From Desulfocapsa sulfexigens (GTDB lineage: Bacteria; Desulfobacterota; Desulfobulbia; Desulfobulbales; Desulfocapsaceae), in NCBI GenBank assembly GCA_015662865.1, contig DQTH01000219.1, positions 1-33,060 on the forward strand: a DNA stretch of 33,060 nucleotides, written 5' to 3'. Position 1 is the stretch's first letter, and each line of letters begins with the position of its first letter. Under the pieces are notes generated by a model. That model did no database searches. It saw nothing but the letters and a program-made list of their open reading frames with translations, and was not told the DNA's origin. Below, piece by piece: positions 1,225 to 32,879 of the stretch. Both the position numbers and the translations under genes were made by a program.

Positions 1225-1617
1225 TTATTTTTCTTCCACTGGATATTGGGACCTGAACCAGTTCCTCCATCCGCCTTTTAATACCCAAACATCAGTATAA
1301 CCCATGGAAATCAGCTTCCGTGCCAGACTGGCACTGGTGGCTTCGTTAGGTCAGGCGCAGTAGAGGACAAGTTTTTGGTCTTTTTTATAGTCTGCAGACA
1401 ATTTGGCCAGATCACTCGCTGCTGCCCGTACAGCCCCTTTGATCTTAAATTCACTGGAACTCCAGTCTCTTCCCGAACGGACATCGAGTATGGCAAGCTT
1501 TTCAGAAGTCATTTGAGCTTTGAGCTCATCTTTGTTCATGGTTGGTGCTTCTCCGGCGAAAACCGGAAGCGTTGTAAAAAGTAGAACCAGTGATAGCAGA
1601 AATAATATTTTTTTCAT
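1225..1617 (-). CDS. Exported rhodanese-like protein, likely selenoprotein (in-frame UGA = Sec89)
   Basis: The frame runs 130 codons if the TGA at 1351-1353 is read through. Residues 1-21 are a signal peptide (MKKILFLLSL..., ending VFA), so the protein is probably periplasmic. LDVRSGRDW (44-52) is the usual rhodanese strand/loop. The TGA falls at codon 89 in LYCA-TGA-PNEATSA, where rhodaneses of this type normally carry a second cysteine (CxCPNEA), and the rest of the fold (ARKLISMGYTDVWVLKGGW) follows in frame up to TAA at 1225. A GU-loop hairpin lies 16 bases after the TGA. The likely role is sulfane-sulfur or selenium transfer; the preceding Cys87 is retained. Its ATG overlaps the stop of the upstream membrane protein as ATGA, suggesting coupled translation. 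The alternative is a nonsense mutation giving an 88-residue fragment that would lack the active-site loop. Confidence 0.82.
1318..1353 (-). promoter_or_regulatory. Candidate bacterial SECIS element
   Basis: On the minus strand the UGA (1353-1351) is followed by 16 bases and then the perfect hairpin GUGCCA-GUC-UGGCAC (1334-1320). Two further C-G pairs extend it if one A bulges. The triloop starts with GU, as in bacterial SECIS hairpins bound by SelB, and the loop lies 22 bases after the UGA, inside the spacing range known for these elements. The folding was done by eye, not by computation. Confidence 0.7.
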
Positions 1618-2861: not shown

Positions 2862-3115
2862 TAATTTTGTTCACATGATGGAAGAAGTTTTAAGATGAAT
2901 ACTTATTACTGTCTGTACCACAACGTGGTTTTTTCGGCGAAGGAAAAGATGAGAAAAATGTGCAGGAGTCTGTTCGAGAATAGGCATTTTGGTCAAAATC
3001 GAGGAATTTTTCAAAAGTGAGTGCGCCATATGTCTGATATTGCTATCATTATTTTTTTGAAAATTCTGAAGAGTTTGGGCTAAAGGGCTTTCTCGGACAG
3101 GCTGCCAGGGAAAAT

Positions 3116-3301
3116 CTATTTGTCTTCAACTGTAATGGCATCCTCTTCACACAGCTCCATGCAGGTAAAACAGCCATGGCATTCTTCACTGTTCACAGGA
3201 GTTGCCTTGTCTTCAATCAGTTCGTAAACTTCGCCCGGACAGCCGTCAACGCACTCTCCGCAGCCTTTGCATTCTTTTTTGTCAACACTGATATGCCACA
3301 T
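3116..3301 (-). CDS. 2x[4Fe-4S] ferredoxin
   Basis: A 61-residue acidic protein with two cluster motifs, CKGCGECVDGCP (about 11-22) and CHGCFTCMELC (about 42-52). Each has the CxxCxxCxxxC spacing of a [4Fe-4S] site; the second lacks the usual following proline. It should carry low-potential electrons in the cytoplasm. I chose the ATG at 3301 (MWHISVDKK) because AGGAG lies seven bases before it; the frame is open nine codons further upstream without a good ribosome-binding site. The gene stands alone, with more than 100 bases on either side, so the partner enzyme cannot be told from context. Related small ferredoxins are common in sulfate reducers and methanogens. Confidence 0.88.
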   Translation of the reverse strand: MWHISVDKKECKGCGECVDGCPGEVYELIEDKATPVNSEECHGCFTCMELCEEDAITVEDK

Positions 3302-3423: not shown

Positions 3424-3804
3424 TTATTTTAGGTCGTTAAGTGTCTGTTGGAGGTTCTTTCCGTTAACGAAACGGATTTTTCCTGGCGCAGACCGGGAGG
3501 AAACAGCGGAAAAACTACCGAAGCCCCTTAGCTGAATGCTGTCTCCTTTGACAAGAGCTGTAGAAAGAATTTGTGCCAGTACGTTAAGGAATTGTTTTAC
3601 TTTTTTGGGGGAGAGTCCAGTGCAGGTTATCTGTCCGGCGGTAATAACAGAGTTTTGTTCAGCAGGTATCAAAAAGCCGAAACCATTACATTCCGGGCAG
3701 TCTTCATAGGAGAATTGAAAACGGCTCACACCGCCGAACCAGGTCATTTGCCCTGTACCGTTACATCCGGGGCAGGGCGGTGGTTGCTGTTTGCTATGTT
3801 TCAT
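3424..3804 (-). CDS. Zinc-motif protein fused to a shortened HU/IHF-like domain
   Basis: A 126-residue basic protein with two parts. The N-terminus holds two CxxCxGxG motifs of the DnaJ zinc-binding type, CPGCNGTG (11-18) and CPECNGFG (36-43), likely binding one zinc. The C-terminus (about 67-126) resembles an HU/IHF subunit: GLSPKKVKQFL, then VKGDSIQLRGFGSF, which is the hallmark LrGFGsF turn, then IRFVNGKNLQQTL. The segment that normally forms the DNA-wrapping beta-arm, with its PKTG motif, is missing between FGSF and IRF. I infer a nucleoid-associated or regulatory DNA-binding protein; the function is unknown. ATG at 3804 is used; no strong ribosome-binding site is visible. Compare the full-length IHF/HU subunit at 20706-20984. 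Confidence 0.7.
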   Translation of the reverse strand: MKHSKQQPPPCPGCNGTGQMTWFGGVSRFQFSYEDCPECNGFGFLIPAEQNSVITAGQITCTGLSPKKVKQFLNVLAQILSTALVKGDSIQLRGFGSFSAVSSRSAPGKIRFVNGKNLQQTLNDLK

Positions 3805-30912: not shown

Positions 30913-31024
30913 ATTGGAACTTGCCAGCAGTCTGGCCGATGCATAGATTGAGCTTTGATAAGCTGTTATCTTAATGATCTGTAAGGTGTGATCATTTAAT
31001 ATCATGAGTAATAAAGGATTTGTC

Positions 31025-31639
31025 ATGGAAACACTTGATTGCAGGGGAATGAATTGTCCCAAACCGGTATTACAGACAAAAGCTCATCTTGAAAAATCGG
31101 AAAAAGAACCATTCAGAGTTCTTGTGGATAATGAGGCATCACGGGAAAATGTACTTCGCTTTGGCAGGAGCCAGGGTTGTCAGGTGAGTGCTGTTGATGG
31201 AGAGGATGGAGATTTTCAAATTACTCTGGTACCTGGTGACAGCACTGCAGAGAAAGATACTTTTCAGGAAGAGGATTACCGCTGTGATCTGCCTGGTAAC
31301 AACAATCTTATCTATGTGATTTCATCCAATACAATGGGTAGGGGTTCTGAGGATCTGGGCTGGGCCTTGCTGCAAACCTATGTGACAACTATTGCTGAGA
31401 TTTCGCCTCTTCCCTCTCATGTCCTTTTGTATAACGGGGGTGTCAAGCTTGTGACAACGGAAGGTAAAGCACTCGAAGCGTTACAGGCTCTGGAAAAGAA
31501 GGGTGTCACAATCTGGGTTTGCGGAACCTGTCTTGAATTTTTCAAGCTCGAGGAAAAGCGCAAAGCAGGCAGCATAACCAATATGTATGATATTATGAAT
31601 ACCATGGCCTCAGCAGCCAGGGTCGTCAGCCCTTTCTAA
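31025..31639 (+). CDS. yedF: YedF-type sulfurtransferase-like selenium metabolism protein
   Basis: A 204-residue cytoplasmic protein. The N-terminal 70 residues are a TusA/SirA domain (METLDCRGMNCPKPVLQTK) with the CPxP motif at 11-14 that carries the persulfide cysteine. The C-terminal part (about 95-204) is a DsrE-like domain with VISSNTMGRGSEDLGWAL and the cysteine pair in VCGTCLEFF. This two-domain form is the one linked with selenium use, and is found near selD-type genes in other genomes. I chose ATG at 31025, with AAGGA six bases before it, over ATG at 31004, which lacks such a site. A palindromic element starts 11 bases after its stop, and the HdrD/GlcF-like gene follows. Confidence 0.87.
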   Translation: METLDCRGMNCPKPVLQTKAHLEKSEKEPFRVLVDNEASRENVLRFGRSQGCQVSAVDGEDGDFQITLVPGDSTAEKDTFQEEDYRCDLPGNNNLIYVISSNTMGRGSEDLGWALLQTYVTTIAEISPLPSHVLLYNGGVKLVTTEGKALEALQALEKKGVTIWVCGTCLEFFKLEEKRKAGSITNMYDIMNTMASAARVVSPF

Positions 31640-31650
31640 GAAATGGTGCT

Positions 31651-31763
31651 CTAACACCCCACAAGGGGGTATAAATGCCTTGTGGGTGTTTGTAACATTT
31701 TGAGTTCAAATTCAATCCACAAAATCTTGTTTTATATTGCTGTTTATATGGAGTAAGGCTCTA
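31651..31763 (+). repeat. Palindromic intergenic element, copy 5
   Basis: It begins with CTAACACCCC-ACAA-GGGGGTATAA, then ATGCCTTGTGGGTGTTTGTAAC, an AT-rich middle with AAATCTTGTTTTATATTGCTG, and ends TATATGGAGTAAGGCTCTA (parts abridged). A long alternative stem, AACACCCCACAAGG against CCTTGTGGGTGTT, competes with the short ACCCC/GGGGT hairpin. It starts 11 bases after the yedF stop and ends at the ATG of the next gene, whose GGAG ribosome-binding site lies inside the element. Confidence 0.85.
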
Positions 31764-32879
31764 ATGTCCTCCCATCTGTTCGAACGTATTGCCTTGGATT
31801 GTTTTAACTGTGGCATTTGCGTTAAAGAATGTGCTTTCCTGCAGGAATACGGTACACCACAGAAAATTGCGGTCGACTGGCTGGCAGGCAGGGGAAGGAA
31901 AAACAGACAGGTTCCATTTGAATGCAGCCTGTGTGGGTTGTGCCGCGCAGTGTGCCCTAAAGATCTTGATCCTTCAGCCATGTTTCTTGACATGCGTCGG
32001 GAGCTGGTAGCAAAAGGTGATGGTGATTTTAGGGAGCATAACACCATTCGTTCATATGAAAAAAGGGGAAGTTCCCCACTTCTGTCCTGGTTTCATTTTC
32101 CGGAAAATTGTCACACTGTACTTTTTCCCGGCTGCGCTCTGCCGGGAAGCCGACCGTTGACGCTTACCCGTTTGTTTTCTTTTCTGCAGGAGTCCATCCC
32201 GGATATTGGCGTGGCACTTGACTGCTGCACCAAACCATCACATGACCTTGGCAACAGTGTTCATTTTCAGACGATGTTCAGGGAGCTTTGCCGGATTCTT
32301 ACTTCCCACTCCGTAAAAACAGTTCTTACGGTCTGCCCAAATTGTTATCGTATTTTTAAGGAATATGGCACAGACCTGGAAGTCCGATCTGTTTATGAAG
32401 ATCTTGCCCGGTCTGGAAATTTTTCAGAAAATCTTCAGACTGAAATAACTGTACATGACCCTTGTGGCGTACGTTTTTCTGAAGAAGTACAGCAGAGCAC
32501 AAGGGATCTTTTACAGCTCCAGGGCCTGAAAATAAGAGAAATGAAACATAATCGGACAAAATCCTATTGTTGCGGTGAAGGCGGGGCCGCAGGTTTTATA
32601 AGACCTGATTTTGCTGAGAAATGGACCCGGAAAAGAGTGAATGAGGCAGGGCCGGACCAGATAGTCAGCTATTGCGCGGGTTGTACACATTACCTGGGAA
32701 AGGAGGCAAAGACCCATCATCTTCTTGACCTTCTTTTTTTTCCGCAGGCAGTGATGCAGGGAAGGCAGAAGGTGAGCAAGTCACCATTTACCTACTGGAA
32801 CAGGTATCGTTTGAAACAAACCCTCAAAAAACAATTGCCTGATGGCATTTCCGGTACCCGGCTGGAGCTTCGCAATTGA
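31764..32879 (+). CDS. HdrD/GlcF-like iron-sulfur oxidoreductase subunit
   Basis: A 371-residue cytoplasmic protein. Two [4Fe-4S] ferredoxin motifs come first, CFNCGICVKEC (13-23) and CSLCGLCRAVCP (about 54-65), then two cysteine-rich CCG domains: GCALPG ... DCCTKP ... VCPNC, and DPCGVR ... YCCGEGG ... CAGC. This layout is shared by heterodisulfide reductase HdrD, glycolate oxidase GlcF, GlpC and LutA/LldE-type proteins. It probably passes electrons between a flavoprotein and a thiol or quinone partner; no flavoprotein gene follows within the window. ATG at 31764 has GGAG ten bases before it, in the palindromic element; a TTG nine codons upstream is unlikely. It stands directly behind yedF on the same strand. 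Confidence 0.88.
   Translation: MSSHLFERIALDCFNCGICVKECAFLQEYGTPQKIAVDWLAGRGRKNRQVPFECSLCGLCRAVCPKDLDPSAMFLDMRRELVAKGDGDFREHNTIRSYEKRGSSPLLSWFHFPENCHTVLFPGCALPGSRPLTLTRLFSFLQESIPDIGVALDCCTKPSHDLGNSVHFQTMFRELCRILTSHSVKTVLTVCPNCYRIFKEYGTDLEVRSVYEDLARSGNFSENLQTEITVHDPCGVRFSEEVQQSTRDLLQLQGLKIREMKHNRTKSYCCGEGGAAGFIRPDFAEKWTRKRVNEAGPDQIVSYCAGCTHYLGKEAKTHHLLDLLFFPQAVMQGRQKVSKSPFTYWNRYRLKQTLKKQLPDGISGTRLELRN

Follow-up and report, generated by a model that had tools for sequence, protein, structure and literature searches.

Does the in-frame TGA of a short rhodanese-like gene in Desulfocapsa sulfexigens terminate the protein or is it read as selenocysteine (Sec), and what would such a residue do at this site? 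The gene is part of a stretch of 33,060 nucleotides (assembly GCA_015662865.1, contig DQTH01000219.1), which is called the window throughout. A preliminary description had reported a frame of 130 codons with a single TGA at codon 89, leaving the strand unstated. This frame was recovered on the minus strand, while ORF inspection of the plus strand found no open frame at 1225-1617. Read from 1617 to 1225, the only internal TGA is codon 89 (1353-1351), embedded in LYCA-U-PNEATSA, and a TAA at 1227-1225 closes the frame. The earlier warning that automatic callers would stop at 88 residues and miss the active-site loop holds for plain ORF finders, with the ORF list giving 88 amino acids. From its sequence the N-terminus resembles a signal peptide and the protein an exported one; a hydrophobic N-terminus was common to the orthologues compared within the genus. 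A scan of the window for frames with a single TGA yielded no second convincing candidate besides the rhodanese, the others being ordinary stops between genes or shadows of genes read in another frame. The features of the locus are summarized in Table 1.

Table 1. Predicted features of the rhodanese locus, given in window positions.
Feature	Position	Strand	Basis and remarks
Putative Sec-containing rhodanese gene	1225..1617	minus	130 codons + TAA stop; 130 residues with Sec89
Signal-peptide-like N-terminus MKKILFLLSLVLLFTTLPVFA, putative export	1552..1617	minus	sequence inspection
Codon 87, TGC, rhodanese active-site Cys, end of core strand	1357..1359	minus	alignment and model
UGA codon 89, read as Sec (predicted)	1351..1353	minus	conserved TGA; Cys in Pseudomonadota relatives
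Predicted bSECIS hairpin GTGCCA-GTC-TGGCAC	1320..1334	minus	comparative pairing; apical loop ~21-22 nt after UGA
APC-superfamily permease-like membrane protein, 415 aa	1614..2861	minus	upstream of the rhodanese; PF13520 via homologues

First, the fate of the codon was followed across relatives. A search of 395 genomes of the phylum showed a TGA at the aligned codon in all of the 30 best loci. Within the genus an orthologue was present in 16 of 20 genomes, among them all genomes at least 90% complete, and each of the 16 carried TGA at codon 89. The pN/pS ratio between the genus orthologues was 0.28 ahead of the UGA and 0.23 behind it; the latter value indicates that the codons beyond the UGA are selected for the protein they encode. 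Judged by these ratios, purifying selection is acting on both halves of the gene. The aligned relatives from Pseudomonadota, with VYCACPNEASAA, carry Cys instead of Sec at position 89. Sampling of 94 loci gave 50 loops of the type CxU, 11 UxU, 27 CxC, 4 CxS and 2 CxA, a sample which is biased, because one of the peptide search patterns contained CAC. The preliminary description had proposed to ask homologues for Cys or Sec at position 89, and one of the two was found at the second loop position in 88 of these 94 loci.

Second, the hairpin behind the codon was analyzed. The perfect 6-bp hairpin with a GU-starting loop announced for the region 16 bases past the TGA was found at 1334-1320 of the minus strand, with GTGCCA (1334-1329) pairing to TGGCAC (1325-1320) around the loop GTC (1328-1326) and a spacer of 16 nt (1350-1335). 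Perfect 6-bp hairpins at a suitable distance follow 40 of the 1395 TGA triplets of the window, but only 3 (0.2%) when a GT-starting loop is demanded as well. The single-sequence fold energy of the region was not significant (z = -1.0), and the hairpin is convincing due to comparative evidence, not due to fold energy. For the pairing test 43 distinct sequences were aligned without gaps, anchored on the UGA, and a 5-bp stem was scored. In all 43 the stem was paired; 4 of its 5 pairs showed compensatory changes, and there were 10 double-change cells. None of 2000 column shuffles, which do not correct for relatedness, matched either the observed pairing or the double-change count; slid controls, in which the partners were moved by 1-3 columns and relatedness is retained, left 22-52% of the cells paired. 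All 43 sequences had G as the second nucleotide of the 5-nt loop. Over the five hairpin codons, synonymous differences within the genus amounted to 0.10, versus an average of 0.49 elsewhere, and these codons (6-10 after the UGA) form the five-codon run with the lowest synonymous variation of the gene. A 2026 review (PMC13188914) gives as constraints for a bSECIS a loop of 3-9 nt, a stem of 4-16 bp, a G within the first two loop positions and a distance of the loop of 16-37 nt from the UGA. The window hairpin agrees with the constraints given there and, moreover, covaries. An Rfam scan of the window at the gathering threshold gave zero matches.

The protein is not without known relatives. Database searches were run with Cys substituted for U. 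The protein scored 173.8 bits against the NCBIfam model NF041203 (rhodanese_LYCAU, "rhodanese-related (seleno)protein"), whose curated equivalog cut-off is 115, and matched Pfam PF00581 (Rhodanese) at 4e-15. The review lists NF041203 as 'Rhodanese-like domain-containing protein form 3' with the motif CxU and one Sec (PMC13188914); the CxU form also appears as 'COG0607 form 2, CxU' in PMC9312934. The score above the cut-off and the listing of the CxU form in the literature settle the identity: the rhodanese belongs to the already described selenoprotein family NF041203, and the finding as such is not new. The existence of this curated family also bears out the more general statement in the preliminary description that Sec-containing rhodanese relatives had been reported. 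Length, LYCAU loop and Sec position are the same in the family, and no difference was found in the protein itself; what the family literature, as far as accessible, leaves without mention are the overlapping permease gene and the UxU relatives treated below. Pseudomonadota rhodaneses with a CACPNEASAA loop (e.g., L136-L161) share the loop, with Cys replacing Sec, but are only ~30-43% identical to the window protein, and the single one scored (L138) remained below the NF041203 cut-off with 76.5 bits. The rhodanese-like form 1 (UxxS) shares the rhodanese fold with the window protein and likewise has its in-frame UGA within the loop of the active site. A likely second Sec-rhodanese of the same genome (G000:C172; L105 714-2135, minus), with one in-frame TGA, resembles this form; it differs from the window protein by three rhodanese domains, the loop MYCGGPTUGMSTK and a different place of the Sec. 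TsoB (NF045694, rhodanese/DsbD fusion-like selenoprotein) is likewise a selenoprotein with a rhodanese domain, but represents a fusion of 572 positions with UxxxxU, against which the window protein scores 30 bits (cut-off 805).

Decoding of UGA as Sec calls for the corresponding machinery, and the preliminary description had named selA, selB, selC and selD as the genes to look for. Three of them were present in the genome: selA (604 bits), selC, the tRNA-Sec with anticodon TCA (73.5 bits), and selD (371 bits), which carries an in-frame TGA of its own. The fourth, selB, was not found in the draft assembly of 307 contigs by a TIGR00475 profile search, nor was the C-terminal (wing) domain of SelB (PF09107). 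The best TIGR00475 matches were EF-Tu and further GTPases: the top one, an apparent selB on C233 (188 bits), turned out to be EF-Tu, and a protein of 605 aa on C286 was LepA-like; both were rejected as SelB. All 16 relatives searched possess selB above the cut-off. L063 and L064 have the gene order Mrp-type ATPase, metallo-hydrolase, selB, and a third relative (L065) agrees up to its contig end. The Mrp-type ATPase of the genome studied here is located at C115:161-1126 (minus strand). One side of it shows the neighbour expected; on the other, contig C115 ends 160 nt beyond the gene, where L063 and L064 carry selB. The metallo-hydrolase preceding selB in the relatives is also missing from this assembly. 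Since the contig ends at the selB site of the relatives and the metallo-hydrolase is missing too, the absent selB likely reflects an assembly gap and not a loss. The window itself holds a yedF-type selenium metabolism gene at 31004-31639 on the plus strand (TIGR03527, 205 bits versus 110). It is followed at 31737-32879 (plus strand) by a gene for an Fe-S protein, which matches positions 308-665 of NF045663 'diclust_near_Sec' below the cut-off.

These data allow the possible readings of the TGA to be weighed. Plain ORF finding terminates the gene at this codon, and the draft genome with its 307 contigs lacks selB, as would suit a genuine stop codon or a sequencing error leaving a pseudogene or a truncated protein of 88 residues. 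All 16 genus assemblies compared share the TGA, as do the 30 best homologues from the phylum; selection is at least as strong beyond the TGA as ahead of it, and the hairpin is conserved and covaries. These three points oppose such a reading. The first two of them refute it, and we give it practically no credit. Hardly better placed is a selenium-free reading of the UGA, in which an altered code or a suppressor would insert Trp or Cys. A Cys-inserting suppressor would yield a working protein, as relatives have Cys at this position, but UGA terminates other genes of the window, for example the permease gene (TGA 1616-1614) and a pyruvate kinase-like frame (TGA 12912), the genome possesses tRNA-Sec, selA and selD, and the hairpin conforms to the bSECIS model. 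Consequently, the gene almost certainly encodes a selenoprotein, a putatively exported single-domain rhodanese, in which the UGA at codon 89 would be decoded as Sec via SelA, SelB, SelC and SelD with the hairpin 1334-1320 as bSECIS. The Cys-Ala-Sec-Pro loop of the preliminary description thereby gains support from the conserved TGA, the covarying hairpin and NF041203.

What does the Sec residue contribute? An AlphaFold model based on 29 sequences adopts a rhodanese fold (pLDDT 88.4) with a strand at 82-86, a loop at 87-92 and a helix at 93-104, placing residues 87 and 89 within the active-site loop. Its best PDB match was 6mxv (E-value 1.1e-8), with GlpE and others matching too. PF00581 and the model both point to a rhodanese fold, and in the model a core strand leads into the active-site Cys. 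We tentatively favor a redox chemistry of Cys87 and Sec89 via a selenenylsulfide. Cys87 would take sulfane sulfur as a persulfide or attack a disulfide-type substrate, Sec89, two residues further in the same loop, would resolve the intermediate by a Cys87-Sec89 selenenylsulfide, and a thiol reductant would re-open this bond. The UxU relatives are consistent with a redox pair at the loop. A serious rival, which we regard as possible, is a selenoprotein acting as plain sulfurtransferase, with Cys87 alone carrying the sulfur and Sec89 tuning the loop or guarding against overoxidation without any Cys-Sec bond. The ordinary rhodanese fold suits such an enzyme, as do the CxS and CxA paralogues of some relatives, in which the first Cys is retained and the second loop position lost. 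The canonical rhodanese loop follows the pattern C-x-x-G-x-R, which inspection of the loop CAUPNE did not reveal. This speaks against the plain sulfurtransferase, as does the Cys or Sec at the second position in 88 of the 94 loci of the biased sample; in addition, the first position is Sec as well in 11 loci, as expected for a redox pair.

These 11 loci come from several families of the phylum and share the motif [LF]YUxU, in which TGA also replaces the codon of the catalytic Cys (L029, L032, L037, L039, L123-L129). The two UGAs are six bases apart, and one conserved hairpin is found 3' of both. Four of the encoded proteins (L126 and three other L0xx/L12x examples) were scanned, and all four exceeded the NF041203 cut-off. 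A literature text search of partial coverage found no mention of UxU rhodaneses. As the review assigns one Sec to the family and the literature searched contained no UxU rhodanese, UxU may represent an undescribed variant of the NF041203 family. In other genomes of the phylum (L114-L116, L118 and L119) paralogues were observed that carry Ser as the second residue of the pair (CxS); some of these genomes also hold CxU or UxU copies. In L119 a TAA stands where the loop Tyr codon is expected.

A second lead is provided by the gene neighbourhood. The stop of the upstream permease gene and the start of the rhodanese gene overlap as ATGA, and both genes are probably part of the same operon. The permease itself had no match in Pfam, NCBIfam or PDB sequences, while its homologues from other loci match PF13520 (AA_permease_2). 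Such a homologue was located 5' of the rhodanese in at least 27 of 46 loci, distant families included; the number is a lower bound, because several of the loci are short. Downstream of the rhodanese a glucokinase gene was found in 13 genus loci. The pairing suggests a shared extracytoplasmic substrate. A coupling of the rhodanese to the permease-like protein, for instance by handling a sulfur compound which the latter carries, is conceivable but doubtful. Comparably speculative is the wider proposal that the permease and the exported rhodanese with its Cys-x-Sec loop act together as a dedicated two-part module on a sulfur or selenium compound outside the cytoplasm, and that some relatives advanced to Sec-x-Sec with one hairpin decoding two UGAs six bases apart. 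Further upstream, between 2861 and 3424, a small ferredoxin-like frame KKECKGCGECVDGCPG...ECHGCFTCMELCEEDAI (~3000-3270, minus strand) was missed at the ORF threshold of 80 aa. Next to it, 3424-3804 (minus strand) encodes a protein of 126 aa, in which a DnaJ-type Cys-rich stretch (below the Pfam cut-off) is joined to an HU/IHF-like DNA-binding part.

Overall, a gene cut to 88 residues by a plain caller is confirmed as a full selenoprotein gene by comparative evidence. The loops CxC, CxU, UxU, CxS and CxA constitute a natural series at one active site, which is useful for asking what Sec contributes to rhodanese chemistry. The UxU relatives offer a case for asking how a single bSECIS serves two UGAs, and the conserved adjoining permease is a lead to the substrate of the rhodanese.
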